A DNA stretch of 64,000 bases from Sphingomonas hankookensis (lineage in GTDB: Bacteria > Pseudomonadota > Alphaproteobacteria > Sphingomonadales > Sphingomonadaceae). The notes beneath the pieces were generated by a model. That model ran no database searches. It had not been told where the DNA came from and was given only the letters and a program-made list of their open reading frames with translations. Location: positions 434,001-498,000 of the forward strand of contig NZ_LQQO01000001.1 of assembly GCF_001619955.1 (NCBI RefSeq), written 5' to 3'. Each line of letters starts with the position of its first letter. The stretch's first letter is position 1. Position numbers and translations under genes: made by a program. This document shows, one piece after another, positions 1 to 15,100 of this stretch.

Positions 1-221
1 AGGCCGAGGACCGGTTCGCGGCGGAAGCGGCCGAGCTGCTGCGCAAGCGTGCGCTGGCGAACGAGTTCGAATCGCTGATCATCGTCGCCCCGCCCAAGAC
101 GCTGGGCGAGATGCGCAAACATTATCACAAGGCGGTCAGCGACAAGCTGGCCGGCGAACTCGACAAGGACCTGACCGGCCATCCGGTCGACCAGATCGAG
201 AAGCTGCTCGCCAACGCCTGA
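1..221 (+). CDS. Host-attachment family protein, C-terminal fragment
   Basis: The window opens inside this gene. The coding frame starts at base 3 and ends with TGA at 219-221, leaving 72 residues. The visible part contains a conserved-looking stretch (LIIVAPPKTLGEMRKHY) followed by a helical end that terminates in DQIEKLLANA. This resembles the C-terminal half of the family annotated as proteins required for attachment to host cells (Host_attach), whose biochemical role is poorly defined. The N-terminus lies outside the window, so length and start cannot be judged. A strong hairpin terminator follows immediately. The assignment is from family resemblance only. Confidence 0.65.
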   Translation, partial: AEDRFAAEAAELLRKRALANEFESLIIVAPPKTLGEMRKHYHKAVSDKLAGELDKDLTGHPVDQIEKLLANA

Positions 222-240
222 TGCCGAAAGGCCGGAACGG

Positions 241-279
241 AAAACGGGCCGCGCGGGGGTTCCACGCGGCCCGTTTTGT
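241..279. terminator. Rho-independent terminator, probably bidirectional
   Basis: A 13-bp perfect stem pairs 241-253 (AAAACGGGCCGCG) with 265-277 (CGCGGCCCGTTTT) around an 11-nt loop. The T-run lies on the + strand and the A-run gives a T-run on the - strand. It sits between the converging genes ending at 221 and 297, so it can end transcripts from both sides. Confidence 0.85.
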
Positions 280-296
280 CGTGCAATCGACCGGGA

Positions 297-1205
297 TCAG
301 GCGGCGTCGCTGGCCACCTTGCGCGCGAACCGCTTGCGCAGGACCAGCGCCGCGGCGGCGCCACCGAATAGCAGCAGCATCGGCGGGGCCGGCACCGGCG
401 TCGGGGGCTTGTCCGGCGGCGGGGGCGGCGGATAGCCGTTGGAGGACGACGAGGTGGACGAGCTGGTCGCCGAGGATGTCGAGGCGGACGATGCCGACGA
501 CGTGCTGGTGGATACGTTGCCGCTCGACGAGGTGGAGGTCGACGTCGAGACGTTGCCGCTCGAGGAGGTCGAGGTCGACACGTTCCCGCTCGACGAGGTG
601 GACGTCGACACATTGCCGCTCGACGACGACGAGACATTGCCGCTGGACGAGCTGGACACGTTTCCGCTGCTGCCGCCCGACGCGGACGACGTGCTGCTGG
701 TGCTCGACACGCCGCCGGTGCTGGTCGATGACCCACCGGCCGAGGTCGAGGTGGAGCCGCTCGTGCTGGAGGTCGACGATACGACGATCCCGCTCGACCC
801 GCCCGAACCGCCGCCGCCGAAGAAGCCGCCCGCGAAGAAGCCGCCGCCGATCCCGCCGCCGCCGGTGCCGCCGACCAGTACCGGGCCGGGGGCGAAGCCG
901 CCGCCCTGCATGACCGGCATGTCGGGGCTGGCAAAGGCGGGGGGCAGCGGCACGGGATCGGCTTGGCTGGCGACGGTCACGACGGTCGGTGCGCACACGG
1001 TCTTGGTCCGGGTGACGATGCGCTTCACGACTCGCTTGGGGGCCGGGCGCGCCGCGACTCGCTTCGTGATGACGCGTTTGGTGATGGCGCGCTTCGTGAT
1101 CTCACGATGTTGCGACGATTCGGCGACGTGCACCGCGCCGCCGCCGATGACGGCACCGCCACAGGCACATGCGCATAATTTCGCCAATGCCATCTTTACC
1201 GACAT
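297..1205 (-). CDS. Exported Ser/Thr-rich repeat protein with PEP-CTERM-like sorting tail
   Basis: This 302-residue protein is low in complexity. It has a short hydrophobic N-terminus, three copies of an ITKR-type repeat (about residues 36-49), a Gly-rich segment (about 100-139), then a Ser/Thr-rich region with tandem SSSGNVSTST-like units (about 180-238, DNA 492-668). The C-terminus is a Pro-rich spacer, PVPAPP, a hydrophobic helix (MLLLFGGAAAALVL) and the basic RKRFARK. That tripartite end resembles PEP-CTERM sorting signals, although the usual Pro-Glu-Pro is replaced by Pro-Ala-Pro-Pro. A GGAAGAG Shine-Dalgarno lies 7 nt before the ATG. I infer an exopolysaccharide-associated surface protein that could be glycosylated on Ser/Thr. 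No exosortase gene is in the window. Confidence 0.6.
   Translation of the reverse strand: MSVKMALAKLCACACGGAVIGGGAVHVAESSQHREITKRAITKRVITKRVAARPAPKRVVKRIVTRTKTVCAPTVVTVASQADPVPLPPAFASPDMPVMQGGGFAPGPVLVGGTGGGGIGGGFFAGGFFGGGGSGGSSGIVVSSTSSTSGSTSTSAGGSSTSTGGVSSTSSTSSASGGSSGNVSSSSSGNVSSSSSGNVSTSTSSSGNVSTSTSSSGNVSTSTSTSSSGNVSTSTSSASSASTSSATSSSTSSSSNGYPPPPPPDKPPTPVPAPPMLLLFGGAAAALVLRKRFARKVASDAA
492..668 (-). repeat. Coding tandem repeat (SSGNVSTST-type units)
   Basis: The reverse-strand frame encodes six back-to-back units built on Gly-Asn-Val-Ser followed by Ser/Thr runs, with unit length varying from 8 to 12 residues. Unit-number variation of this kind can change the length of the protein stalk between strains. 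Confidence 0.7.
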
Positions 1206-1553
1206 GCAGCACCACTCTTCCCAAAGAACCCCGACTACGTGCCCGAGAGCATCGCGCGGGTCCGTCCTGCATCACCAAGGCGAAAGAAACCGTAAAGTTC
1301 AAGCCAATGTGACCTATTCCCGCGGTCATATTTCTGAAATGCGCGCTACGCCAGCACTTCGCTACGGTTAACGTACCGTAAAGGGACGACGAGTCACACC
1401 GGTACGATACGGACCCGTCGGCGATGCGACGGGAACAATGTCCCATGTTCCGCAACGCTTGTGGAGCCGCCCCCCGCTCGATATAGGCGCGCGGGACAAG
1501 AGAGGGCGACCCCGCGGGCTTCGTAGAGGGACGCCCCTGGGTGGAGAATGGGG
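1206..1553. other. 348-bp intergenic region between divergent genes
   Basis: No ORF here has convincing coding character. It carries the promoters of the leftward surface-protein gene and the rightward dksA. Two inverted repeats stand out: TACGGT-TAACGT-ACCGTA at 1363-1380 and GGAACA-8 nt-TGTTCC at 1432-1451. The first contains the TAACGTACCGTAA motif that recurs near 4112-4124 and 44098-44113. Confidence 0.6.
1363..1381. promoter_or_regulatory. Candidate operator, recurrent TAACGTACCGTAA motif (site A)
   Basis: A perfect 6-bp inverted repeat TACGGT/ACCGTA flanks TAACGT. The string TAACGTACCGTAA (1369-1381) matches a site upstream of the lipid kinase/hemB pair at 12 of 13 positions and a site upstream of the nitronate monooxygenase-like gene on the opposite strand. 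The binding factor is unknown. Confidence 0.4.
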
Positions 1554-2021
1554 ATGGCCACGGTTTTGAGCGACACGAAACAACCTCTCGACATGCCACC
1601 GCCGCCGGCGAACGACGATGGCACCGGATATCGTCCCCATGCGGACGAACCGTTCATGAACCCCCGTCAGCAGGCCTATTTCCGGGCCAAACTGCTGGCA
1701 TGGAAGGACGCAATCCACCGCGAGGCGCAGGACACGCTGGCGCATCTGCAGAACGAATCGCTGCGCGAGGCCGACCTGACCGACCGCGCATCGAGCGAGA
1801 CCGACTTTTCGATCGAACTGCGCACCCGTGATCGCCAGCGCAAGCTGATCGCCAAGATCGAGGCGGCGCTGCGCCGGATCGACGATGGCGAATATGGCTA
1901 TTGCGAAGTCACCGGGGAGCCGATCGCGCTGGGCCGGCTGGAAGCCCGCCCCATCGCGACGATGACGGTCGAGGCGCAGAGCCGCCACGAACGCCAGGAA
2001 AAGGTATCGCGCGAGGATTGA
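1554..2021 (+). CDS. dksA: DksA-type RNA polymerase-binding transcription factor
   Basis: This 155-residue protein has the DksA/TraR layout: an N-terminal coiled-coil segment (about 45-110) and a C-terminal zinc-finger-like globule with GYCEVTGEPIALGRLEARP. DksA binds the RNA polymerase secondary channel and works with ppGpp in the stringent response. Only one of the four zinc-ligand cysteines of the E. coli protein is present here, which is common in alphaproteobacterial homologues. I start it at the second ATG (1554) because GGAG lies 8 nt upstream; the ATG at 1548 would have almost no spacing. A GC-rich hairpin follows the stop codon. Confidence 0.9.
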   Translation: MATVLSDTKQPLDMPPPPANDDGTGYRPHADEPFMNPRQQAYFRAKLLAWKDAIHREAQDTLAHLQNESLREADLTDRASSETDFSIELRTRDRQRKLIAKIEAALRRIDDGEYGYCEVTGEPIALGRLEARPIATMTVEAQSRHERQEKVSRED

Positions 2022-2033
2022 GCGCACGACAAG

Positions 2034-2058
2034 GCGCGGGGCCGGCAGGGCCCCGCGC
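2034..2058. terminator. GC-rich hairpin between converging genes
   Basis: A 10-bp perfect stem GCGCGGGGCC (2034-2043) pairs with GGCCCCGCGC (2049-2058) around a 5-nt loop, between the dksA stop and the stop of the leftward DUF465 gene. There is no T-run, so intrinsic termination is only probable. Confidence 0.5.
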
Positions 2059-2069
2059 AGGTCGTCGCG

Positions 2070-2225
2070 TTACAGCGCCGTCATCTCCTGCTTCACCATC
2101 AGCTTGCGCTTCTTCAGCGAGGACAGCAGCGCCTGGTCGGGGGAAGGACGCTGCGTTTCGGCGGCGATCTGACGATCGAGCGTCGCATGTTTCGCTTCGA
2201 GGGCGGTGAGGTGGGCAGACTGCAT
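2070..2225 (-). CDS. YdcH/DUF465 family mini-protein
   Basis: This is a 51-residue, all-helical, charged protein with the DUF465 signature of a short helical hairpin ending in LKKRKLMVKQEM. The function of the family is unknown. An upstream in-frame start (2354) exists, but the ATG at 2225 has a perfect AGGAGG 8 nt upstream and gives the usual family length. It is convergent with dksA and divergent from a second DUF465 gene at 2378. Confidence 0.8.
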   Translation of the reverse strand: MQSAHLTALEAKHATLDRQIAAETQRPSPDQALLSSLKKRKLMVKQEMTAL

Positions 2226-2377
2226 CGTTGCATCCTCCTGCTTGGCTGTTGGGGGAATGAATAGAACACAGCCGCCGACGATTGTCGCCATGCCGCGAGC
2301 GGCTTTTTCGACATGGCGTGCGAAAATGACCGACGGGCCGTTGCCAGCGGCCAAGCGCCAAGCGAGAGTGGACCGCG

Positions 2378-2575
2378 ATGGACGAATCGGACCTTGAACA
2401 GCGTCTGGGGCTGCTGCGGATCGAGCATCGCGACCTCGACGATGCGATCGCGGCGCTGGGCATGGCGGCGCAGGTCGACCAGTTGCAAATCGCCCGGCTG
2501 AAGCGGCGTAAGCTGCGCCTGCGCGACGAGATCGCGGCGATCGAGGACCAGCTGATCCCCGACATCATCGCCTGA
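2378..2575 (+). CDS. YdcH/DUF465 family mini-protein (second copy)
   Basis: This 65-residue protein has the same plan as its divergent neighbour: an N-terminal helix (EQRLGLLRIEHRDLDDAI), then a basic LKRRKLRLRDEIAAIEDQ helix. DUF465 proteins are abundant small helical proteins of unknown role in alphaproteobacteria. The two copies are clearly related but not close, so they look like old paralogues. The 152-bp gap between the two start codons must contain both promoters. Confidence 0.75.
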   Translation: MDESDLEQRLGLLRIEHRDLDDAIAALGMAAQVDQLQIARLKRRKLRLRDEIAAIEDQLIPDIIA

Positions 2576-2658
2576 ACCGCCCGGTTGGTTCGTTCAGGGA
2601 CGGTCGCGCGTCATCGGGCGCTTGTCGTCCGGCGGCAGGGCGTGGCATCCAGCGGATC

Positions 2659-3117
2659 ATGGGACCAGCCGGACACGGGGCGGACGTTCAACGCCGACTG
2701 ATCGATTCGCTGTACGTCGAAGCCATGCTGCTGGCCGACGAGGCGCGATCCTATTTCAACGATGCCGGACAGGCGGAACGCGCGCTGCTCGACCCGATGG
2801 CGCGGGTGGTGCTGTCGTGCGAATCGCTCAAGATCACGACGCGGCTGATGCACGTCATCGCGTGGCTGCTGACCCAGCGCGCGATCGATGCGGGCGAGAT
2901 GGCGCCGGACCTGGCCGAGGATCCGCTGCGCGCGCTGGCCACGTCGCCGGTGACCGAGGACGAGGTGCTGGAGACGATGCCGGCGGGGACGCAGGTGCTG
3001 ATCCGCGCCAGCCTCGACCTGTATCGCCGGGCGGAACGGATCGAGCGGTCGAAGACCAGCCCGCCGCCGGCCAGCCCGGCGCGGGCGATGTTCGAACGGC
3101 TGGCGATGCAGCTATAG
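2659..3117 (+). CDS. rcdA: RcdA-like cell-cycle proteolysis adaptor (DUF1465)
   Basis: The 152-residue product is a helical DUF1465 protein with the conserved segments MARVVLSCESLKITTRLMHV and AWLLTQRAIDAGEM. In Caulobacter this family is RcdA, which with CpdR and PopA delivers CtrA to ClpXP. The role here is inferred from family membership; CtrA, CpdR and PopA are not in the window. The ATG at 2659 lacks a strong Shine-Dalgarno, so a later start is possible. The 3' end overlaps the converging gene by 6 bp (3112-3117). Confidence 0.75.
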   Translation: MGPAGHGADVQRRLIDSLYVEAMLLADEARSYFNDAGQAERALLDPMARVVLSCESLKITTRLMHVIAWLLTQRAIDAGEMAPDLAEDPLRALATSPVTEDEVLETMPAGTQVLIRASLDLYRRAERIERSKTSPPPASPARAMFERLAMQL

Positions 3118-4059
3118 CGCCAGCCGGGTGCGGGCGGCGCGATATTCCTCCGCCATGCGCGCGATACGGTCGGCGGCGGGCAGGACGGCATCGACCGCAC
3201 CGATGCCCTGGCCCGCGCCCCAGATGTCCTTCCAAGCCTTTGCGCCGGACCCGAAATTCATCTTCGAGGCGTCGCTGTCGGGCAGGGCGTCGGGATCGAG
3301 GCCGGCGGCGACGATCGAGGCGCGAAGATAATTGCCGTGCACCCCGGTGAAGAGGTTGCTGTAGACGATATCGTCCGCCCGGCCGTCGACCACCGCCTGC
3401 TTGTAGGCGGCGACGGCATTGGCTTCGGCGGTGGCGATGAAGGGGGAGCCGACATAGGCGAGGTCGGCGCCCGCCGCTTGGGCCGCGAGCACCGCGCCGC
3501 CATTGGCGATCGCGCCCGACAGCGCCAGCGGGCCGTCGAACCACTGGCGAACCTCCTGCGTGAAGGCGAAGGGGTTCAGGCGGCCGGCATGGCCGCCGGC
3601 GCCGGTGCAGACGAGGATCAGGCCATCGGCGCCCTTTTCCACCGCCTTGTGGGCGAAGCGGTCGTCGATGACGTCGTGCAGCGTGATCCCGCCCCAGCCC
3701 TGGACGGCGGTGTTCAGGTCCTCGCGCGCGCCGAGCGAGGTGATGACGATCGGCACCTTCCATTTGGCGCAGGTCGTCAGGTCCGCCTCCAGCCGGTCGT
3801 TGGAGCGGTGGACGATCTGGTTGACCGCGAAGGGCGCGGCGGGGCGGTCCGGGTTGGCGCGGTCGTGGGCGGCCAGTTCCTCTGTAATGCGGTGGAGCCA
3901 TTCGTCGAGCTGCGCCTGCGGCCGGGCGTTCAGCGCCGGGAAGGAGCCGACGATCCCGGCCTTGCACTGGGCGATGACCAGATCGGGGCCGGAGATGATG
4001 AACAGCGGCGACCCGATGACCGGGATCGTCAGCCTGTCGAAGAGAGAAGGAAGCGCCAT
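3112..4059 (-). CDS. Nitronate monooxygenase (2-nitropropane dioxygenase) family FMN enzyme
   Basis: A TIM-barrel FMN protein of 315 residues from the ATG at 4059. It shows the family N-terminus (FDRLTIPVIGSPLFIISGPDLV), a Gly-rich phosphate-binding segment (CTGAGGHAG), and the later ANGGAVLAAQAAGADLAYVGSPF loop. Members oxidise alkyl nitronates such as propionate-3-nitronate using oxygen, or act as enoyl reductases; the natural substrate here is not known. An in-frame ATG 18 nt upstream is less likely because the family begins near the later Met. The recurrent TTACGGTACGT motif lies about 55 bp upstream. Confidence 0.85.
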   Translation of the reverse strand: MALPSLFDRLTIPVIGSPLFIISGPDLVIAQCKAGIVGSFPALNARPQAQLDEWLHRITEELAAHDRANPDRPAAPFAVNQIVHRSNDRLEADLTTCAKWKVPIVITSLGAREDLNTAVQGWGGITLHDVIDDRFAHKAVEKGADGLILVCTGAGGHAGRLNPFAFTQEVRQWFDGPLALSGAIANGGAVLAAQAAGADLAYVGSPFIATAEANAVAAYKQAVVDGRADDIVYSNLFTGVHGNYLRASIVAAGLDPDALPDSDASKMNFGSGAKAWKDIWGAGQGIGAVDAVLPAADRIARMAEEYRAARTRLAL

Positions 4060-4111
4060 ATGAGTTTCATAGCGCAACCGTAATCACTGTCCAGCGGCGA
4101 AAGTTGGCGAA

Positions 4112-4124
4112 GGTTACGGTACGT
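4112..4124 (-). promoter_or_regulatory. Candidate operator, recurrent motif (site B)
   Basis: The + strand reads GGTTACGGTACGT; on the - strand this is ACGTACCGTAACC, the same core as sites at 1369-1381 and 44099-44111. It lies 53-65 bp upstream of the leftward gene starting at 4059, within a 220-bp intergenic gap that otherwise shows nothing. Confidence 0.4.
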
Positions 4125-4279
4125 CGAAGTTTATAACGACCAGATTTCGTTGTTCTGCAATGACTTGCAGGGCAACTTCGGCGTGGAAGTCGACACTTGT
4201 GGTTCAATCGGTGCGTCGAGCGGTGCCGGGCAATGTCAAAGAGCCGGAACAGCATGCATGTTTCGGCCAAGTAGGAAAG

Positions 4280-5608
4280 TCAGCCGGTCACGACCTGATA
4301 GAGCAGCACCAAGTTGAGCACGATCACCGCCGCGCAGATGACCCATGCGGCCAGCGCCAGTACCGGGCGGTTGGCGAAGTCGCCCATCTTGCCCCGGTCG
4401 CCGGTGAAGCGGACCAGCGGATAGACGGCGAAGGGCAGCTGGAGGCTCAGCACGACCTGGCTGGCGATCAGCAGCTGCGCCGTGCCGCTTTCGCCATAGA
4501 GGCTGGCGACGATGACGGCGGGGACGATCGCGATCAGCCGGGTGACGATCCGGCGGATCCACGCCGGCAGGCGGATGTTGAGGAACCCTTCCATCACGAT
4601 CTGTCCGGCGAGCGTCCCGGTGATGGTCGAGTTCTGGCCCGAGGCGAGCAGCGCGACCGCGAACAGGATGCTGGCGGCACCGGCACCCAGCATCGGGGTC
4701 AGCAGCTGATAGGCGTCCTGGATTTCGGCGACGTCGGTGCGGCCCGCGGTGTGGAAGGTCGCAGCGGCGAGGATCAGGATCGATCCGTTGATGAACAGCG
4801 CGAGCATCAGCGCGACCGAGCTGTCGATCGTCGCCAACTTCACCGCCTCACGCCGACCCTCCGGCGTCCGATCGAAGCTGCGCGTCTGCACGATCGAGGA
4901 GTGCAGATAGAGGTTGTGCGGCATCACGGTCGCGCCGAGAATGCCGATCGCGATGTAGAGCATCGCCGGATTGGTCACGATCTCGGTTCGCGGGATCAGC
5001 CCCTCGGCGATCGCGGCGAGCGAGGGTTGCGCGAGGAACAGTTCCACCGCGAAGCAGCCGGCGATGATGATGAGCAGCGCGACGATGAACGCTTCCAGCT
5101 TGCGAAAGCCATATTGCTGGAGCAGCAGGATCAGCATCACGTCGACGGCGGTGATGCACACGCCCCAGACGAGCGGGATACCGAAGAGCAGTTGCAGCGC
5201 GATGGCGGTGCCGATGACCTCCGCAAGGTCGCAGGCGATGATCGCCAGCTCGCACAGCACCCACAGGACCCAGCGGATCGGCGAGGGATAATATTCGCGA
5301 CACGCCTGGGCGAGGTCGAGGCCGGTGACGATGCCGAGCTTGGCCGACAGCGATTGCAGCACCATCGCCATGATGTTCGACAGCAGGATGACCGACAACA
5401 GCGTATAGCCGAACGCCGAACCGCCGGCGATGTCGGTCGCCCAGTTGCCCGGGTCCATATAGCCGACCGCGACGAGATAGCCGGGGCCGGCAAAGGCACC
5501 GAGCTTGCGCCAGAACTGCCCGGCGCCGGCTGGAACCGGCACGGTGCGAAACGAGCCGGGCAGGCTGGGGCGCCGCTCGGGAGCGTCTGCGCTGGTCGGA
5601 GGGGCCAT
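4280..5608 (-). CDS. mntH: Nramp-family divalent metal (Mn/Fe) transporter
   Basis: This 442-residue multi-spanning membrane protein is a proton-coupled Mn(II)/Fe(II) importer. The Nramp signatures are plain: DPGNWATD in TM1 (about residues 52-59, metal-binding Asp and Asn) and MPHNLYLHS in TM6 (Met and His of the metal site). Eleven hydrophobic segments fit the family. It is the last gene of a leftward group with two ferritin-like lipoprotein genes only 24 bp and 20 bp apart, so the three probably form a metal-handling operon. No Mur/Fur-type site was recognised upstream of the operon. Confidence 0.92.
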
Positions 5609-5632
5609 GCGATACGCTCCCGAAATCAGACG

Positions 5633-6646
5633 TTAGACGGCGTTGCTGGTCTTCAGCGCGCCATTGACCCCCGCCGGGAAGAAGCCGCCGGCCGAGACCG
5701 AGGCGCGGGTCAGGTAATGGATGTTGAGCACCTGCGCCGGCAGGCGGCTGAAGGTCAGCGCGCTGCCGTCGGTCGGCACGATGTTCGACGCGTTGTTGAC
5801 CGGCTTCACCCCCTGATCGGTGTCGTTGGCACCTTCGAGGTCGTCGCGGGCCTTCGACAGGGCTTCGGTCGCATCGAGGATCGCCGGGGTGGCGATGCCC
5901 TTGCGATACAGCGCAGCGCGGATCAGGCCGGCATGATAGGCCTTGGCCGAGACCATGCCCGCAATCGCGTCGATGAACGCCGCGCCGGTCACGCCGGCGG
6001 TGATGCCGCGATAGGCGGTGACGGCGACGTCGGCGAACACGAACGCGCCGAGCATGACCTGTTCGTCGGTGGCATAGACGTCATAGGTCGCCGCCGTGCC
6101 GGTGATGAGCCCCGCCGTCCGGGCAAGGTTCGAGAAAGCGCTGGTCGCGGTGACGCCGAGGTCGATCGCCGGCTGGGCGATGACCGGGGTCCCGATCGTG
6201 CGGCGCAGCAGCGCGACCTGTGCCCGGGTGTCGGCGGCGATTTCGCGCGCGAACTGGCCGAGGACGGGATCGGCGAACACGCGCTGGCGCCCGCCGCTGG
6301 CGGCCCCGGCGGTGCCGGCTCCGGTCAGCAGGTCGGCGGACAGGCCGGCGCCGGTCGTGACGACGCTGAAATACTGCGCCTCGAGATAGGCGAGGTTCAG
6401 CGCGAAGTTCAGCACATCGGCATCGGTCAGCGGCGTCGAGGACGGCGTCGGCGTGGGCGACGTCGTTGCAGTCGGCGTGGGGGTGGGCGTCGGGGCCGGG
6501 TTGCTGTTGTTCCCGCCACAGGCAGCGAGCAGCGACGCGCCGGCCATGACGGCCGACACGCTGCCCGCGCTGCGCAGGAAGTCGCGGCGATCGGCGCGGC
6601 GGCTATCGTTGGTGTCGAGCACCGACAGGATCGATTCGTTGGTCAT
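5633..6646 (-). CDS. Ferritin-like TAT lipoprotein paralogue with a degenerate metal site
   Basis: A 337-residue paralogue of the adjacent 6667-7680 gene. It has a twin-arginine signal (RRADRRDFLRSAG), a lipobox (LLAAC), a Pro-Thr repeat linker (about 51-72) and a ferritin-like four-helix domain (PF13668 type). Compared with its neighbour the ligand positions are mostly lost: helix 1 E86 to A (E89 kept), helix 2 E140 to T, H143 to Q and E145 to A, helix 3 E to A205, and helix 4 E to K235 (H238 kept). A canonical di-iron or di-manganese site is therefore unlikely. I infer a structural or regulatory pseudo-ferritin acting beside the intact copy, possibly as a heterodimer partner. Confidence 0.8.
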   Translation of the reverse strand: MTNESILSVLDTNDSRRADRRDFLRSAGSVSAVMAGASLLAACGGNNSNPAPTPTPTPTATTSPTPTPSSTPLTDADVLNFALNLAYLEAQYFSVVTTGAGLSADLLTGAGTAGAASGGRQRVFADPVLGQFAREIAADTRAQVALLRRTIGTPVIAQPAIDLGVTATSAFSNLARTAGLITGTAATYDVYATDEQVMLGAFVFADVAVTAYRGITAGVTGAAFIDAIAGMVSAKAYHAGLIRAALYRKGIATPAILDATEALSKARDDLEGANDTDQGVKPVNNASNIVPTDGSALTFSRLPAQVLNIHYLTRASVSAGGFFPAGVNGALKTSNAV

Positions 6647-6666
6647 CTGGGTCGCTCCCGAAAGGC

Positions 6667-7680
6667 TCAGTTCGCCGCGCTGGACTTGATGGCGCCGTTG
6701 ACACCGGCGGGGAAGAAGCCGCCCGTCGTGACGGCGTTCCGGTTCAGATAGGCGATGTTGAGCACCTGTCCGGTGGTGCGGCCATAGGGGAGGCCGTTGG
6801 TGGAATCGAACGGCATGATGTTCGACTGGTCCTCGATCGGGCGCACGCCCTGATCGATGTCGCTGGCGCCGTCGAGATCGTCGCGCGCCTTCGAGATCGC
6901 TTCGGTCGAATCGATCAGCGTCGGGGTGGTCAGCCCGCGCATGTACAGTGCCGAGCGGATCATCGCCGCGTGATAGGATTCGGCGGCGAGGATGCCCGAC
7001 GCCGCCTGACGGATCAGCGCGTTGGCGATGCCGCCCATCGCGCCGCGATAGGCGGTGACGCCGACATCCTCGAACAGGAAGGCGGCGAGCAGGAAATTGT
7101 CGTCATTCTCATAGGGATCGAACGTCGCGCCCTGACCGATCAGGCCGGCGGCACGCGCGGCGTTCGAAAAGGCGCTGGTCGCGGTCGCGCTGATGTCGAT
7201 GTTCGGCATCGCGATTGCCCCGGTGCCCAGCGCGTTGCGCAGGAATTCGACGTGCGCCACTTCGTCCTGTGCGATTTCGCGGGCATAGTTGGCGACGATC
7301 GGGTCGCTCAGATTGGCCTTCTTGCCGCCGGTCACGGTCCCGGCGGTGCCGGTGCCGGTCAGCAGCGTGGCAGCCAGGCCGGTGCCGTTGGCGGCGAACG
7401 CATAGAATTGCGCTTCGAGATATTCGAGGTTCAGCGCGAAGTTCAGCACGTCGAGGTCGGTGAAACCGCTGCTGTTCGTTGCGGTCGGCGTCGGGGTCGG
7501 CGTCGGCGTGCCGCTGGGCGTCGGGGTGGGCGAGTTGTCGTCGTTGCCGCCGCACGAGGTCAGCGCGAGGCCGGTGCCGACCGCCGCCACCGCGCCAAAG
7601 GCACGGAAGAAGTCCCGGCGTTCCTCGCGTCGGCGCACCCGCGCGTCGAGGGCTGCAACCATCTGTGTCTCGTCGGTCAT
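6667..7680 (-). CDS. Ferritin-like domain TAT lipoprotein with intact ligand set
   Basis: This 337-residue exported protein begins with a twin-arginine motif (RREERRDFFRAFG), a hydrophobic stretch and a lipobox LTSC (Cys43), followed by a Pro-Thr linker. The ferritin-like domain retains likely metal ligands: E86/E89 (EYLEAQFY), E140 and H143 (DEVAHVE), E204 (FEDVGVTAY), and E234 and H237 (ESYH). Folded export by Tat fits a protein that loads metal in the cytoplasm. It is first in a leftward operon with a degenerate paralogue and mntH, so a role in envelope Mn/Fe storage or oxidative protection is a reasonable inference. The enzymatic activity is unknown. Confidence 0.85.
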   Translation of the reverse strand: MTDETQMVAALDARVRRREERRDFFRAFGAVAAVGTGLALTSCGGNDDNSPTPTPSGTPTPTPTPTATNSSGFTDLDVLNFALNLEYLEAQFYAFAANGTGLAATLLTGTGTAGTVTGGKKANLSDPIVANYAREIAQDEVAHVEFLRNALGTGAIAMPNIDISATATSAFSNAARAAGLIGQGATFDPYENDDNFLLAAFLFEDVGVTAYRGAMGGIANALIRQAASGILAAESYHAAMIRSALYMRGLTTPTLIDSTEAISKARDDLDGASDIDQGVRPIEDQSNIMPFDSTNGLPYGRTTGQVLNIAYLNRNAVTTGGFFPAGVNGAIKSSAAN

Positions 7681-7709
7681 CTACCGGTTCCCTTAAACCC
7701 TGGCGGCCC

Positions 7710-7730
7710 CGTTCCGTGGATGACGGAACG
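7710..7730. promoter_or_regulatory. Perfect 8-bp inverted repeat upstream of the ferritin-like/mntH operon
   Basis: CGTTCCGT (7710-7717) and ACGGAACG (7723-7730) form a perfect inverted repeat with a 5-nt spacer, 30-50 bp upstream of the operon's first ATG. It could be an operator or the end of the lacI-type transcript; the missing T-run argues for the former. Confidence 0.4.
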
Positions 7731-7815
7731 ACCCGGACCTCTCCTTCGATGATATGCGGGTCAGGCCGACCGACATATCGCTGTAGCGTGCTGTATTGGC
7801 TGTCGTGCCGCGATG

Positions 7816-8868
7816 CTACCCCCCAGCGACCGGCGGAGGCGCGATCGATTCCCGCAGGATCAGGCGGTGTTCGTGGGCGATGGTCGCCGGGACCGGCGTG
7901 CCGGACAGCTGATCGAGCAGCAACGACGTCGCGCTGACCGCCATGTCGAACACCGGCTGGCGCATGGTGGTGATGCGCGGCCAGGTGATGCGGGCGATTT
8001 CCGAATCATCGAACCCGACGATCGACAGGTCGCGCGGCACGTCGATGCCCAGTTCGCGCGCGGCCATCAGCGCGCCGACCGCCATGTCGTCGTTCTGGGC
8101 AAGGATCGCGGTCGGCCGGTCGGGCCGGTCGAGCAGGGTCCGCGCGGCGGCAAAGCCCGAATCGAAGGTGAACAGGCCGTCGATGACCCGCGTCGGATCG
8201 ATCCGAGCGCCGGCGGCGGCGAAGGCGTCGGCATAGCCGGTCATGCGCGCGCTGCTGGCGGCATGGGTCGGATCGCCCTTGATGATGCCGATGCGGCGAT
8301 GGCCCTGCGCCAGGACGGCGCCGGCGACTTCGGCCGCGGCGACCACGTCGTCGACGACGACGCCCGGCACGATATCGTCGAACTGGGTCGGCGAGATGCG
8401 GGCGAACGGCATCCCGATCCCGACCAGTTCGTCGAGGATGCGGCGGCTGTCGGATGCCGGCGGGGCGAGCACCACGCCGTCGATCGCGGCCGAGCGCAGC
8501 AGACCGACGACCTCATCCGCATGGTCGTTGACCGAACGCACCGGCAGCACGACCAGCCGGTAGCGTTCGCCGCGCAACCGGTCGAGCACGCCCATCTGCA
8601 GGTCGACGCCATAGCTGGGCGAGGGATTTTCATAGACCAGCCCGATCAGGTAGGAGCGTTGCCGCGCCAGCCCCTGCGCCATGATGTTGGGGTGATAGTC
8701 GAGCACGCGCACCGCTTCGCGCACCCGGTCGCGCACCGCATCGGTGACGTGCGGTTCGCCGTTCAGCACGCGGGACACGGTTTTCGTCGATACCGCCGCA
8801 TGGCGCGCGACATCGACGATGGTGATGCGCCGGGACGGGCGCGATCGCGGGGATTTCATGGGCGCCAT
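7816..8868 (-). CDS. LacI/GalR-family transcriptional regulator
   Basis: A 350-residue LacI-type repressor. The N-terminal helix-turn-helix and hinge are clear (TIVDVARHAAVSTKTVSRVLNG, then HPNIMAQGLARQRS), followed by a periplasmic-binding-protein-like effector domain with the usual ILAQNDDMAVGAL and VPRDLSIVGFDDS segments. Such regulators normally sense a sugar. The start is the ATG at 8868 or the in-frame ATG at 8859, with GGAGGA just upstream. No sugar operon is adjacent: it is followed leftward by the ferritin-like/mntH group and divergent from a PDZ gene, so its target is unclear. Confidence 0.88.
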   Translation of the reverse strand: MAPMKSPRSRPSRRITIVDVARHAAVSTKTVSRVLNGEPHVTDAVRDRVREAVRVLDYHPNIMAQGLARQRSYLIGLVYENPSPSYGVDLQMGVLDRLRGERYRLVVLPVRSVNDHADEVVGLLRSAAIDGVVLAPPASDSRRILDELVGIGMPFARISPTQFDDIVPGVVVDDVVAAAEVAGAVLAQGHRRIGIIKGDPTHAASSARMTGYADAFAAAGARIDPTRVIDGLFTFDSGFAAARTLLDRPDRPTAILAQNDDMAVGALMAARELGIDVPRDLSIVGFDDSEIARITWPRITTMRQPVFDMAVSATSLLLDQLSGTPVPATIAHEHRLILRESIAPPPVAGG

Positions 8869-8988
8869 CTTCCTCCACGCCGCCGCGCGCATGTCAACCT
8901 TCGCAGGTGCGAAGATGACGCGATCTTCATGTGCCGCCCATCCGCCGGACGCCCGGCATGGCGCAGGGTGGCGGCGAAGGAGGTGGCG

Positions 8989-9387
8989 ATGGACGCGATC
9001 GGGCGCAGGTCGGGAATGCCGGTACGCGGGATCGCGCTGAGCGGTCTGGTCGCCCTTGCCCTGGTCGGACCCAGCGTCCTTGCCAGCGGGCGGAGCGCAG
9101 TGACGGCCGGCGGCGCGACGCTGTCCGTTACCCAGGCGCCGGACGGGTTGATCGTCACCAGCCTGGAGACTGGTGGCGCCTCTGCACAAGCGGGGCTGCG
9201 CGTCGGCGATGTGATCGACCGGGTCGACGGATCGGGCGCGCCGACGCCGGACATGCTGCTGCGTGCGGAGGGCGACGGCGTCGCGCGCCTGCATGTCGCG
9301 GCAAGGGGTGACGGCGTGGGCCGCACGCTGATATGGCGGCGACCAACGGAGGGCCAAGGTGAAGATCCTGATCGTCGAGGACGATGA
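8989..9387 (+). CDS. Small exported PDZ-domain protein
   Basis: A 132-residue protein with a hydrophobic signal segment (about 13-32, ending VLASG) and a single PDZ-like domain containing LETGGASAQAGLRVGDVIDRVDG, the ligand-groove signature of HtrA-type PDZ domains. There is no protease domain. A perfect AAGGAGGT (8977-8984) precedes the ATG. The end overlaps the response-regulator gene by 29 bp in another frame, so the two are co-transcribed and probably translationally coupled. I infer an envelope accessory that binds protein C-termini and may inform the kinase encoded two genes later. Confidence 0.75.
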   Translation: MDAIGRRSGMPVRGIALSGLVALALVGPSVLASGRSAVTAGGATLSVTQAPDGLIVTSLETGGASAQAGLRVGDVIDRVDGSGAPTPDMLLRAEGDGVARLHVAARGDGVGRTLIWRRPTEGQGEDPDRRGR

Positions 9388-10042
9388 ACAAACCGCCAGC
9401 TATATCGCCAAGGGGCTGACCGAGGCCGGGTTCAACGTCGATCGCGCCACCAACGGGCGCGACGGGCTGTTCCATGCCATTGACGGCGGCTACGACTGTA
9501 TCGTCATGGACCGGATGCTGCCGCAGATGGACGGCATGGCGGCGGTCGCGGCGATGCGGGCCGCCGGGGTCGCTACGCCGGTGCTGATCCTGTCGGCCAT
9601 GGGATCGCCCGACGACCGGGTCGCCGGGCTGACCCAGGGGGCCGACGACTATCTGACCAAGCCGTTCGTGTTCGCCGAACTGCTCGCCCGCGTCCGGCTG
9701 CTGACCCGGCGGCAACAGGCGGGCGGGCCGGCGGTCGAGACGAAGCTCGTCTGCGACGATCTGGAGATGGATCTGCTTGCCCGGCGGGTGCGGCGGGGGA
9801 CGCGGGTCATCGACCTGCAACCGCGCGAGTTCCGGCTGCTCGAATATCTGCTGCGCCATGCCGGGCAGGTGGTGACCCGCACCATGTTGCTGGAGGGCGT
9901 GTGGGACTATCATTTCGATCCGGGCAGCAACGTGACCGACGTGCATATCAGCCGGCTGCGGCGCAAGATCGACGAGGGTGAGGAACGCCGGCTGCTGCAT
10001 ACGGTGCGCGGGTCGGGCTATAAGCTGGGAGCCGACGCCTGA
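9359..10042 (+). CDS. OmpR-family two-component response regulator
   Basis: A 227-residue regulator starting at GTG with GGAGGG upstream. The receiver domain shows the acidic pair EDD (residues 7-9), the phospho-acceptor Asp in MDRMLPQMDG, the conserved Thr/Ser region (ILSAMG) and Lys in TKPF. The C-terminal winged helix has the typical LQPREFRLLEYLLRHAGQVV and VHISRLRRKID segments. It overlaps the PDZ gene upstream and the predicted kinase start downstream. The layout resembles QseB/TctD-like systems; the stimulus is unknown. Confidence 0.92.
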   Translation: MKILIVEDDEQTASYIAKGLTEAGFNVDRATNGRDGLFHAIDGGYDCIVMDRMLPQMDGMAAVAAMRAAGVATPVLILSAMGSPDDRVAGLTQGADDYLTKPFVFAELLARVRLLTRRQQAGGPAVETKLVCDDLEMDLLARRVRRGTRVIDLQPREFRLLEYLLRHAGQVVTRTMLLEGVWDYHFDPGSNVTDVHISRLRRKIDEGEERRLLHTVRGSGYKLGADA

Positions 10043-11385
10043 TCCGGTGGAGCCGGTCGGCGACGCTGCGCTTTGCCGCGCTGGTGTTCGCGTTGCAGAT
10101 TGCCGGGTCGGCGGTCGTGCTGTTGACGGTCCGGTCGATTACCGAAAAGCAGCTGACCGCCAATGCCACCGACGAGGCGGGGCGATTGCGCGCGACGCTG
10201 CTGGACGGATGGGCGTCGGGCGGGGTCGACCGGCTGGTGCGCGTCGCCGAGGCGCGGCTGGACCGGAGCGACCGGCCGCAATCGGTCGTGCTGGTGATCG
10301 GGCGCGACGGGCGGGTGCTGGCGGGCAATGTGGCGGCATGGCCCCCGAATGTCGTGATCGGACCGCCATCGACCATCGAAATCTTTCGCGTGGCGCGCAG
10401 CCAGCCGGAGGCGATGCGGGTGATCGGCACCGTCCTGCCCGATGGGACGCGGCTGCTGACCGGCCATGTGATCGAGGGCGAGCTGGCGTTCGTCGGCGCG
10501 ATGGAGGCGGCGATGGTCGCGGCGATGGTCGTCGCGCTGCTGCTGGCCGCCCTGGCCGGATGGGCGGCGGCGCGGCTGATCGCGGCGCGGCTCGGGCGGA
10601 CGGCACAGACGGTGGCGGCGGTGACGGCGGGCGATCTGGCGCAGCGGGTCGCGCTGGACGGGGGCAACGACGCGTTCGAGGCGCTGGGCCGGTCGGTCAA
10701 TGCGATGCTCGACCGGATCGCGATGCTGGTCGGCGAGCTGAAGCTGGCGACCGATGGGCTGGCGCATGACCTGCGCTCCCCGCTGACCCGGCTGCGCGCG
10801 ACGCTGGAACGCGCGCTGGCGGCGGCGGAGAGCGAGGAGGGGCGGGTCGCGGTGCTGCGGGCGATGGATGAGGGCGACCGGTTGCTCGGGATGCTCGACA
10901 CCGCGCTGCGCATCACGCGGGCGGAGGCGGGCATCGGGCGGGAGGCGTTCCAGCCGGTCGACCTGTCCGCGCTGGTCGCCGATGTCGCCGACATGTTCGA
11001 ACCGCTGGCCGAGGACCGCGGGCTGGCGATCCGCGTCGTGGATGGCGGCGGTGTGACCGTTCCCGCCAATCGCGAAATGATCGGACAGGCGGTGGCAAAT
11101 ATGGTCGATAACGCATTGAAATATGGCGCTGGTGTTATCCGGGTCGGCGTCGAGCAGGCGGAGGGCAGCGTGGCGATCATCGTTGCCGACGATGGTCCGG
11201 GTATCCCACCCGACCGGCGCGACGATGCGCTGCGGCGCTTCGGGCGACTGGATGCGGCGCGGACCGAAAGCGGGGCGGGCCTGGGCCTGTCGTTGGTTGC
11301 GGCGGTCGCGCATCTGCATGGCGGCACGCTGGAGCTGGGCGACAATGCGCCGGGGCTGGTCGCGCGGATGACGATCGCCGTGTAG
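10039..11385 (+). CDS. Membrane sensor histidine kinase, probable CTG start
   Basis: The kinase has an N-terminal membrane helix, a sensor region of about 115 residues, a second helix (MVAAMVVALLLAALAGWAA), HAMP, a HisKA H-box (LAHDLRSPLTRL), and an ATPase domain with an N-box (NMVDNALKYG), DDGPGIP and GAGLGLSLV. It should phosphorylate the upstream regulator. The GTG at 10084 lies inside TM1 and has no Shine-Dalgarno. Extending in frame to the CTG at 10039 adds IRWSRSATLRFAALV, a normal basic N-terminus. That CTG overlaps the regulator's stop codon and has GGGAG 8 nt upstream, and no ATG, GTG or TTG lies between. The CTG start is inferred. Confidence 0.85.
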   Translation: MIRWSRSATLRFAALVFALQIAGSAVVLLTVRSITEKQLTANATDEAGRLRATLLDGWASGGVDRLVRVAEARLDRSDRPQSVVLVIGRDGRVLAGNVAAWPPNVVIGPPSTIEIFRVARSQPEAMRVIGTVLPDGTRLLTGHVIEGELAFVGAMEAAMVAAMVVALLLAALAGWAAARLIAARLGRTAQTVAAVTAGDLAQRVALDGGNDAFEALGRSVNAMLDRIAMLVGELKLATDGLAHDLRSPLTRLRATLERALAAAESEEGRVAVLRAMDEGDRLLGMLDTALRITRAEAGIGREAFQPVDLSALVADVADMFEPLAEDRGLAIRVVDGGGVTVPANREMIGQAVANMVDNALKYGAGVIRVGVEQAEGSVAIIVADDGPGIPPDRRDDALRRFGRLDAARTESGAGLGLSLVAAVAHLHGGTLELGDNAPGLVARMTIAV

Positions 11386-11387
11386 GG

Positions 11388-11693
11388 TCAGGCGAGGCGG
11401 TGCGGGGTCGGGTCGCCGCGTTCGGCGACCAGTTGTCGATGGGCGATGGTCAGGCAGTCGCGATAGGACGCGGTCACGGAGTCGATTTCGGTGCCGGCAA
11501 GTTGCGTGACATGGGCGAGGGCGGCGTCTTCCGCCATGGTGGCCACCAGCGAGGCAGCGACGGTTTCGTCGAGGCCGAGGCGTGACAGCAGCATGCGGGT
11601 GGCCCGGACCCGCATGCGAAATTCGAAGTCGAGCAGGCGCGCGGTTTCATGCTCCGCCTTCTTGCGCATCGCCCGGCCCAGATCGAATACCAT
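11388..11693 (-). CDS. Hypothetical small helical protein
   Basis: A 101-residue charged, helical, apparently soluble protein (AMRKKAEHETARLLDFEFRM near the N-terminus; no signal or membrane segment). I do not recognise the family. It ends 2 bp from the converging kinase gene, leaving no room for a terminator. Codon use looks like that of the neighbours, which supports it being real. Confidence 0.55.
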   Translation of the reverse strand: MVFDLGRAMRKKAEHETARLLDFEFRMRVRATRMLLSRLGLDETVAASLVATMAEDAALAHVTQLAGTEIDSVTASYRDCLTIAHRQLVAERGDPTPHRLA

Positions 11694-11810
11694 GAGCTAT
11701 CAGCTAGGATGCCGGGAGGACTCGGGCAAGGTGGCGGTCGATGCTCCAAGGGGCTGCCTTTGCCGTGCCGTATTTCGCGGGAACATTCCTTGACCGGAAG
11801 GAGACGGGCG

Positions 11811-12110
11811 ATGTGGGCGTTGCTTCTGTTGATGCAGGCGGGCACCGAACCGCCCGCGCGGATCGACCTGACGCCGCTGTCGCCCGAACCGAAATGCGGC
11901 AAGGCGGAAGACGACGGCGAGATCGTCGTGTGCGGCGAGCGCGACAGCCGCCGCTATCGCCTGAATGCCCCGCCCGCTGCGGCGGAAGAGCCGATGCGGG
12001 CGGAAGTGCGGATTGGTGACGCCAAGGCCGCGGTCGAGGGTGAGAGCGCGGCGCTGGGCAGCGGGATCACGATCCCACGACTGATGGTGCGGCTGAAGAT
12101 TCCCTTCTGA
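11811..12110 (+). CDS. Small exported hypothetical protein with paired-Cys IVVCG motif
   Basis: A 99-residue protein with a short hydrophobic N-terminus (MWALLLLMQAG) and the segment CGKAEDDGEIVVCGERDSRRYR. To my knowledge this paired-cysteine pattern recurs in small secreted proteins of sphingomonads without a known function; the two cysteines could form a disulfide in the periplasm. GGAAGGAG lies 7 nt before the ATG. It converges with the large glycosyltransferase fusion gene, with 2 bp between the stop codons. Confidence 0.65.
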   Translation: MWALLLLMQAGTEPPARIDLTPLSPEPKCGKAEDDGEIVVCGERDSRRYRLNAPPAAAEEPMRAEVRIGDAKAAVEGESAALGSGITIPRLMVRLKIPF

Positions 12111-12112
12111 CC

Positions 12113-15100
12113 TCACGCCGCCTCCACCCGGCCGCTGCGCTCCAGCTTTCCCCATCCGACCACGAACCCGCCGATCGCCGAGGCGATGGCGCGCAGCACG
12201 ACCCAGTACATGATCTGCCGGTACACCAGCCGCTGCGCGACGAGCAGATGGGCGGGATAGCGCGTCTTGTTGCCGTCGAGCCGATAGGCGATCCAGCCGC
12301 AGAAGACGTCGATCGCGGTGAAGCACAGCCAGTACAGGCCCATCTGCCCGACATCGCCGCTGGTCTGTGCCCAGCCATGCTGCGCGACGCGGACGGCCGT
12401 GCCGACGATCGACAGGATCAGCGCGAGGTCGATCAGCGGCGAGATGGCGGCGAAGAAGATCTGGAACAGCCATGCCTGGGGCAGGCCGATCCGGGCGAGG
12501 CCAGCGGGCTTGCCGGTCAGCAGCACGCGGCGATGCTTCCACAGGCATTGCAGCGTGCCGAACGCCCAGCGATAGCGCTGCTTGGCGAGCGCCTTGAAGC
12601 TCTCGGGCGCTTCGGTCCACGCGACGGCGCGCGGGTCGTAGGTGACGCGCCAGCCGGCGCGCTGGATGGCGATGGTCAGGTCCTGATCCTCGGCCAGCGT
12701 GTCCTCCGGATAGCCGCCGACCGCATCCAGTGCCGCGCGCCGCCAGGCACCGACCGCGCCGGGCACCACCGTCATCGCATCGAACCCGGCGAGTGCGCGG
12801 CGTTCGAGATTCTGCGCGGTGATATATTCGACCGCCTGCCAGCGGGTGACGAGGTTCACCCGGTTGCCGACCCGCGCATCGCCCGCGACCGCCCCCAGCT
12901 TCGGATCGGCGAACCAGCGCGCCAGCCGGGCGATGGTCGTCGGTTCGAACTGGGTATCGGCGTCCAATGCGATGATCACCTCGCCCTCCGCCTGCAACAG
13001 CGCGCGGTTCAGCGCCGCCGCCTTGCCGCCATTGGCGAGCGTCAGCAGCGTGACGCGCGGATCGCGGGCGAAGCGGTCGCGCACGACGGCGCTGGTGGCG
13101 TCCTTCGACCCGTCATCGGCGACGATCACCTGCAGCCCCGGATAGTCGCTGGCCAGCACCCGCGCGACCGAATCGGCGATTACCCGCTCCTCATTATATG
13201 CCGGGATGATGACCGAGACGCTGGGATGATAGTCGGGCGGGGTCGGGCGCGTCCGCCGCGACTGGAACCATGCCAGCGCCGCCATCAGCACCGCGCGCGC
13301 CATGCCGAGACCGATGGCGAGGTAGAACAGCCAGGCGAGGCCGACCGCAATCGCCGCCAGCACGATGAAGATGGCGACATCGGTGCGGACCGCCGCGAGG
13401 TCGCGTCCGGTCACCGCCGGCATCGCGACGGCGCGCGGCACGCCGACCAGCTGCGATGCGGTGACGAAGTGATAGCCCTTCGCCTTCAGGATCGCGATGA
13501 TTTGCGGCAGGGCATCGACCGTCTGCTGCCGGTCGCCGCCGCCATCGTGCAGCAGCACGACGTTGCGCGAACTGTCGGCGCTGGCGTCCTCGACCTGCTC
13601 CACCACCTGCCGCACGATCGCGTCGGTGCCCGGCCGCTGCCAGTCGTTGGGATCGACGTGCAGCCCGACGACGGTGTAGCCGAGGTCCTGCGCCAGCAGC
13701 GCGGGTGCGATTTCGTCCATCGTCGTCGGTTCGGCATCGCCGAAATAAGGCGCGCGGAACAGCGTGGTCGACCGGCCGGTATAGGCCTGAATCAGCCGCT
13801 GGGTGGCATTCAGCTCCAGCTTGGTCGTGCGTTCGCCGGTCGTGGCGAGGTTGGGGTGGGTGTAGCTGTGGTTGCCGATCTCGTCGCCATCGGCCACGAT
13901 CCGCTGCAACAGCGCCGGATGTTCGAGCGCGTTTTCGCCGACGACGAAGAAGGTGGCGGGCACCCCGGCCTTTTCCAGCGCGTCGAGGATCGGCGGCGTC
14001 CACGTAGCGTCGGGGCCGTCGTCGAAGGTCAGCGCGATCGCCTTCGGATCGGCGCTGCCGGTGCGCTGCACGACATAGGGGGTAGGGAGCGCGGTGTAGC
14101 GTTCGTCGGCGATCATGCCGTCGCGGTCGAATTGCAGCAGGCGGTGGCCATCCGTCGGGCGGCTGGTGATGCGCAGCACTTCGCCCGATCCCTCGACATC
14201 GACATTGACCGCGCTTCGCAGGCGGCCGAGCCGCGGCACGCGCCCGGCGGTGCGGAAGGCGGCGAAATCGTTCCAGATGCCGGCATCCTCGCTGCCCAGT
14301 CGCCACAGCGCGACATCGTCCAGCCCCAACCGACGCAGCGCCGCCAGTTCGTTCCAGCTGGTCGCGGCGTCGAGCATCCACAGCTGATGGCGGCTGCCGC
14401 GTTCGTCGTCATAGGTGAAGCCGGCATTGCCGCTCGACCGGTCGAAGCCGACCGGGGCCGATGAGTCGTGCGCGGCGAGCCAGGCTTCCTCGATCGAGAG
14501 CGCATCGGCGCCGCCATCGTGCCAGTCATAGGCATAGCTGCCGAGCGCCACGACCAGCTTGTCGCGACCGACCTGGCGAATGGCCTGTTCGACCTGATCG
14601 ACGAACCAGGGTTGCGACGCGATGGGGCCGGGGGTGCCGCTTTCCCAATGTTCGTCATAGGCCATCAGGATCACCCGGTCGGTGGCGCGGGCGATATCGG
14701 CCAGTCGCCATTCGGGATCGCCCGCCGGCGCGGTGACGGCGAGGATCGCGCCCTTGGGCAGGGCGGCGTGGAGCTGCGCGAGGAAGGCGGGATAGCGGGC
14801 GACCGCTGCGGCGGGCAGGCTTTCATAGTCCATGACCAGACCGGCGGCGTGATGCGCCTGCGCATAGCCGGCCAGCTGCGCCACCAAAGCCGCGCGGGCC
14901 TGCGGATCGGCCAGCATCTTTGCGGCCCCTGCGCCGTCCCAGTTTTCGTCGGTCAGGTTCTGCACCATCGGCAGCACCTTCGGCGCGTGGCGCGTGGCGG
15001 CCATGAGCTGTGTCAGGCGTGGATCGTCGATCGCATGGACCTGCTGCCCGACGACGGTGACGAAGGCCGGCACGACCCAGTCGAGGCCGGTCATGTGCCG

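Follow-up and report, generated by a model that had tools for sequence, protein, structure and literature searches.

Tandem ferritin-like PF13668 paralogues beside mntH in Sphingomonas, one with most of its metal ligands lost

The window analysed here, a stretch of 64,000 nucleotides from Sphingomonas hankookensis, contains a minus-strand locus in which a gene for a LacI-type regulator is followed by two paralogous genes, here termed A and B, and then by mntH (Table 1). The intergenic gaps are 20 nt between A and B and 24 nt between B and mntH. Both paralogues are 337 amino acids long and they are 51% identical (171 of 338 columns, E 3e-106); their scores against PF13668, 139.4 bits for A and 82.5 bits for B, exceed the curated cut-off of 24.7 bits. 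A twin-arginine motif and a lipobox are found in each, in agreement with the initial annotation of both as Tat-exported lipoproteins, the calls being made with regular expressions rather than with a signal-peptide predictor. mntH is the sole Nramp match in its own genome (E <= 1e-5). PF13668 has four matches in this genome. Two are A and B; the other two, at C1:370.8-372.4 kb, are likewise arranged in tandem and have intact metal sites.

Table 1. Features of the locus, given in window coordinates
Feature	Position	Strand	Remarks
LacI-type regulator	about 8883-7816	(-)	Pfam match
Element GCCAATACAGCACG upstream of A	7787..7800	(-)	
Gene A, PF13668 ferritin-like protein	6667..7680	(-)	Tat motif, lipobox LTSC, Cys43, intact di-metal residues
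Gene B, paralogue of A	5633..6646	(-)	Tat motif, lipobox LAAC, Cys43
B codon A86 (M1 Glu position)	6389..6391	(-)	
B codon T140 (bridging-Glu position)	6227..6229	(-)	
B codon K235 (bridging-acid position; E234 in A)	5942..5944	(-)	
mntH, Nramp Mn importer	4280..5608	(-)	NCBIfam PRK00701.1, 642.9 bits, cut-off 430

At positions 86, 89, 140, 143, 204, 234 and 237 (P0001), A has EEEHEEH and B has AETQAKH; numbered along B itself, the site is A86, E89, T140, Q143, A205, K235 and H238. The initial annotation had listed these residues for both copies, and the list proved correct when coordinates, strand and alignment were checked. That the residues missing from B are metal ligands is borne out by a solved relative, the tardigrade protein RvFeMP-1. 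Its M1 ligands are E51, E90, H93 and D162, and its M2 ligands E90, E132, D135 and D162 (PMC11616004). A weak phmmer alignment (E 0.11) places E86, E204, G207 and E234 of A on E51, E132, D135 and D162, a correspondence counted by hand with the chain numbering three below that of the paper; the matching of E140 and H143 to E90 and H93 is based on motif position. A further family member, DRB0118, has a glycine at the D135 position, for which an additional helix-1 glutamate may substitute (PMC11616004), and A shows this same pattern, with G207 plus E89. Given this mapping and the DRB0118 pattern there are six ligand positions, which A fills with E86, E89, E140, H143, E204 and E234, and of which B has lost five (A86, T140, Q143, A205 and K235), retaining E89 only. 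H237 is conserved in both proteins and is not among the ligands listed above for RvFeMP-1.

The predicted structures of the two proteins are alike. AlphaFold models of A and B (mean pLDDT 85.3 and 81.9) are good over the domain and have a four-helix ferritin-like fold like that of RvFeMP-1 (8kce), the sole PF13668 member with a solved structure found in our searches. 8kce is the best PDB match of both models (Z 18.2 for A and 18.4 for B, each with an rmsd of 2.0 over 164 residues), and the next-best protein lies about 5 lower in each case (Z 13.5 and 13.1). With the B model, Foldseek returned nothing at E <= 0.001 (best E 0.089); VIA-align, run on the Foldseek candidates, gave the clearer result. 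B belongs to PF13668 by descent and fold, and is not a FeMP by its site. Unlike RvFeMP-1 and DRB0118, which belong to the same Pfam family, B is without M1 and most of M2, and A and B form a tandem of predicted lipoproteins adjoining mntH, known here from sequence. The Mn/Fe role proposed for the pair at the outset is without support: RvFeMP-1 is a metabolite phosphatase, the tested family members are phosphatases, and the authors do not assign the native metal of RvFeMP-1, which was crystallized with Zn and Mg and is more active in vitro with Ni or Co (PMC11616004).

Matches to B are found in 219 of 295 genomes of the genus (E <= 1e-20, all paralogues counted). Seven close matches occur in a collection of named genomes, including S. 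panni, S. hankookensis and Leaf9, and another genome of the window's species (G052) has a match that is 100% identical. The ligand-less copy is kept as a lineage beside an intact copy and mntH, a point that the initial annotation had raised for checking: in 12 of the 14 sampled species of the A-B-mntH lineage the second gene has A86, T140 and K235, combined with E89 and A205 in eight species and with Q89 and E205 in four. In all 12, B is located between an intact A and mntH, and its open frame, Tat motif and lipobox are kept. These 12 genes form one clade in a quick tree (SH-aLRT 100) and so represent one evolutionary event, not twelve; the intact second genes of G187 and G138 are the nearest outgroups. 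Seven fixed changes separate the clade from intact second genes. Three are at metal ligands (E86A, E140T and E235K), each present in 12 of 12 clade members, with glutamate at the corresponding position in 117 of 117 other intact second genes; the rest are F92Y, which lies in the same helix as E86, A174L, A215I and I231M. G208, at the position of the catalytic Asp135, is replaced by A or V throughout the clade, and position 143 is Q in the window species and N in G124. From residue 75 on, 158 of 263 columns are invariant among the 12 B sequences and 184 among the 12 A sequences.

A gene with such a site could be a redundant duplicate that is being lost, under weak constraint and with no special partner role, its metal site having gone because A suffices. 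Median dN/dS values (Nei-Gojobori, pairwise, in sets of 6, 8 and 4 species) are 0.089, 0.193 and 0.128 for B and 0.147, 0.166 and 0.127 for A. Among five sister species, B lies at 0.07-0.11, as low as A in the same pairs (0.09-0.20), and this argues against ongoing loss, as do the features kept in all 12 species and the fixation of A86, T140 and K235. The window species itself leans the other way: B reaches a dN/dS of 0.22-0.27 in pairs that include it, and Tajima tests give chi-square values of 2.2-4.3 for B (up to 4.33, with two of five above 3.84) and of at most 0.25 for A. Because this B is evolving faster than those of its sisters and has lost His143, further decay in the window species is possible. 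Loss of the site also recurs elsewhere in the genus, even in both members of a pair. On balance it is unlikely that B is simply disappearing. The ligand-less copy is a lineage maintained by purifying selection; these data suggest that it is no broken gene and has been retained as a metal-free partner of A. A relaxed pseudogene confined to one genome, which had been named beforehand as the alternative, is rejected for the clade on account of its 12 species and low dN/dS; what stands of that alternative is the mild acceleration of the window's own B.

The wider sample comprised 120 regions from among the matches listed, the window and seven named loci, giving 128 loci and 272 proteins. As the regions were selected for their resemblance to B and to a further altered copy, the frequencies that follow are biased toward B-like and altered copies. 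Two copies are present in 120 of the 128 loci and four in the other eight, with one or three in none; the copies share one strand in every locus, and the median gap within pairs is 29 nt. By hand count, the number of matches is odd in 23 of 219 genomes, nine of which have at least seven. EEEHEEH is found in 233 of the 272 proteins. Among the 136 pairs, 105 are intact in both genes, 19 have an intact first and an altered second gene, four an altered first and an intact second, and eight are altered in both; these last mean that one intact site per pair is no general rule. A family search gave any match in 23 of 119 genomes, including the window's and one other member of the genus. Outside the genus there are tandem pairs in nine genomes, and 17 of their 18 proteins have EEEHEEH, the other being incomplete.

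In seven of the four-copy loci (L188, L193, L199, L204, L210, L214 and L058), two A-B pairs, both intact, follow one another on a single strand; L088, the eighth, has alterations in both members of its second pair. The pairs altered in both members (L185, L092, L194, L195, L201, L202, L206 and L088) often contain Lys or Arg, one example being EEKHERH with KKQHEES, and in such cases the entire pair may have gone metal-free. The record RPSH01000026.1 (L010), titled Bacillus sp. 2B10 N29, carries a Sphingomonas A-B-mntH locus with an MntH that is 96% identical, and is probably mislabelled or contaminated. Among the open-literature papers listed, judged by title and opening of the abstract, no description was found of a PF13668 tandem pair in Sphingomonas or of its link to mntH.

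In a careful tree of 60 rows, first and second genes lie on two sides of one branch, except for two rows, one a first and one a second gene, both from other genera. Forcing all first genes into one clade is not rejected (AU p 0.605), the constrained tree being 7.55 log units better, and the two halves of the tree mirror each other in the window lineage. From their sequences, first and second genes can be regarded as two old paralogue groups, and their strict pairing leads us to infer an A:B heteromer. It may be argued instead that A and B form no complex and are separate stress proteins kept together by co-regulation, B being a stand-alone structural protein. The general-stress motif bearing on this is that of EcfG, published for S. 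melonis Fr1 as GGAAC-N17-20-GTT (PMC6599016). Of 128 loci, 27 have a motif of this type no more than 100 nt upstream of their first gene, compared with 0.22% of random 100-nt stretches; eight of the 27 are among the 28 loci linked to mntH. Co-regulation alone could thus keep the genes adjacent. However, it is absent upstream of A from all 14 loci of the window lineage, whether the spacer is taken as N17-20 or N16-20, and no locus among the 128 has an unpaired copy. The split of the tree by one branch and its mirrored halves also speak for partnership, as do the relatives: helix 4 mediates dimer formation in RvFeMP-1, and for DRB0118 a dimer is indicated by native PAGE (PMC11616004). Separate action of the two proteins is accordingly judged improbable.

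Control of the window operon by EcfG was considered and discarded, as neither the window nor the 13 other loci of its lineage have the motif, though it is enriched across the genus. CAATACAGC, the core of GCCAATACAGCACG, is present in 14 of 14 upstream regions of the window lineage. The CAATACAGCA element upstream of A has one exact match in the genome and the reversed control pattern also has one, so that there is no regulon signal. No riboswitch or other RNA family reached its gathering threshold in positions 1-14000 of the window. Just upstream of A, at 7710-7730, the window genome has an inverted repeat, CGTTCCGT-N5-ACGGAACG, whose right arm is not conserved among the sister species compared.

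The paired genes differ in their signal motifs. Simple pattern rules assign both a Tat motif and a lipobox to 133 of 136 second genes. The 136 first genes divide into 112 with a Tat motif and no lipobox, 17 with both and seven with neither, so that 119 are without a lipobox. The 17 lipidated first genes are those of the 12 species with ligand-less B and of G187, G138, G167, G028 and G206. In the last three, an altered first gene (Q89, Q140; EQQHEEH) is combined with an intact second gene in an mntH-linked arrangement; their first genes group with window A in the careful tree (97/95) and not in the quick tree. An altered member is found in 15 of the 17 pairs with a lipidated A as against 16 of the 119 others, the 15 representing two events. 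This distribution fits a history in which A would first have acquired an anchor, after which the pair could do without one of its sites, the two lineages differing in the site concerned. A derivation from B of the first genes of G167, G028 and G206, which fall among second genes in the quick tree, was dropped because the careful tree places them beside window A; the constrained tree is not rejected.

The substitutions at the former metal sites show a bias toward Lys and Arg. Among the 114 that the 39 altered proteins have at five acid sites, 34 are to Lys or Arg (12 of the 34 being K235 of the clade). Three other Glu columns show 0 of 45 in these proteins and 0 of 144 in 250 intact proteins; the control columns are only three, and the counts, drawn from related sequences, are not independent events. 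Parsimony on a FastTree tree gives eight changes of the Lys/Arg trait and ten between intact and altered. Loss of the site appears from these comparisons to recur across the sampled genus, often with Lys or Arg entering. In 12 of 12 clade B proteins exactly one acid is left beside one Lys at the five acid sites. There is no general rule of exact charge neutrality: of the 25 altered types of site, nine have a net charge of 0 and 16 one of -1 to -4, and the claim is therefore limited to a bias toward Lys and Arg. Class Ie R2 proteins have a ferritin-like fold. The metal-free members of this class have three metal-binding glutamates substituted, one of them by Lys (PMC11846895), and the metal residues of ferritin L chains are replaced by a salt bridge (PMC4642653). 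By analogy, a Lys-Glu salt bridge may take the place of metal in the core of B.

The same lysine could instead point to a new, metal-free function of B, in which it would do chemistry or bind a ligand within a cavity that H237 and one Glu line. The invariance of K235, the four fixed changes outside the ligands, the replacement of G208 and the excess of Lys and Arg over the control columns are all compatible with this, and class Ie R2 offers a precedent in having kept its radical role after losing three metal-binding glutamates. On the other hand, G208A/V and E205A fill or neutralise the cavity, so that packing suits the site of B better than catalysis; His143 is lost in the window species, and the control columns are few and the sequences related. 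A new metal-free function of B is very doubtful.

In 28 of the 128 sampled loci, mntH immediately follows the pair on its strand; in one more it lies upstream, and a locus of another genus also has it downstream. No downstream mntH was found in 100 of the 128 loci; in three of these (L084, L102 and L181) its absence is not established, as less than 1500 nt follow. The coupling to Nramp import that the initial annotation envisaged is thus seen as conserved synteny only. MntH imports metal to the cytosol, and A and B are predicted to lie outside. The Tat pathway exports folded proteins, and this makes a link between metal import by MntH and the exported proteins possible. MncA, a Mn protein, sets a precedent for such a link in acquiring its metal before Tat export (PMC4192464).

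We consider it about an even bet that the locus encodes an A:B system of the envelope in which A has the sole metal site and B is a metal-free structural and anchoring partner. A and B would be old PF13668 paralogues that act together in the envelope, most likely as a dimer through helix 4 by analogy with RvFeMP-1. In most sampled Sphingomonas pairs, both proteins would have a di-metal site like that of the ferritin-like metabolite phosphatases, A being Tat-exported without a lipobox and B a Tat lipoprotein; B would then hold A at the membrane. In the mntH-linked window lineage, A would have gained a lipobox first and B would have lost its metal site afterwards, with E86A, E140T and E234K fixed and E89 or E204 retained. 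As A carries its own lipobox here, anchoring is a weak argument in this lineage. The chemistry would then fall to A, presumably as a phosphatase by comparison with its relatives, and B would be kept for its structure and for anchoring, with a Lys-Glu salt bridge holding its metal-free core together. MntH may raise the level of cytosolic metal, and A, folded before Tat export, would be loaded inside the cell. More tentatively, and with the balance somewhat against it, the genus as a whole may possess a two-subunit envelope system, with A usually unlipidated and B a lipoprotein, in which repeated Lys-driven switching to the metal-free state yields one-site heteromers; this reading includes a general-stress-type promoter in parts of the genus and mntH in parts. 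Such a system, if real, would be an envelope counterpart of H/L ferritin on the metabolite-phosphatase branch.

A parallel to a pair of this kind is found in the vertebrate ferritin H/L heteropolymers, in which a catalytic and a non-catalytic subunit share one fold and the residues replacing the metal ligands of L form salt bridges (PMC4642653). Those are real heteropolymers, whereas the A:B heteromer is a proposal; they also belong to another ferritin-like family and form 24-mer cages, and a cage would not be expected of A:B. The QSK and VPK variants of class Ie R2 resemble B in having lost three metal-binding glutamates, one to Lys, and in being still functional; R2e is a radical protein with a DOPA residue (PMC11846895), whereas B is without sign of radical chemistry. 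The bacterioferritin of Pseudomonas aeruginosa likewise brings two ferritin-like subunits of one genome, FtnA and BfrB, into one assembly, but this is a 24-mer iron-storage assembly with heme, and each subunit alone forms an iron core (PMC8945002).

In plants, Deinococcus and tardigrades, PF13668 proteins have been tied to the tolerance of desiccation and radiation (PMC11616004). The A/B lineage makes the question of heteromers among these proteins directly testable. Strictly paired members, of which one has lost its site and the other kept it, amount to a natural experiment separating catalytic from structural roles, and the replacement of Glu by Lys in B would add another case of a di-metal site turned metal-free.

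Two other genes of the window deserve mention. A 302-aa Ser/Thr-rich protein encoded at 297-1205 (-), for which Pfam and NCBIfam searches gave no match, has a C-terminal tail of VPAPP, a hydrophobic segment and Arg, which we take to resemble a PEP-CTERM-type sorting signal. At 12113-15409 (-), a 1098-aa fusion has matches to glycosyl hydrolase 18, polysaccharide deacetylase and glycosyltransferase 2, resembling PgaB- and PgaC-type functions combined within one chain.
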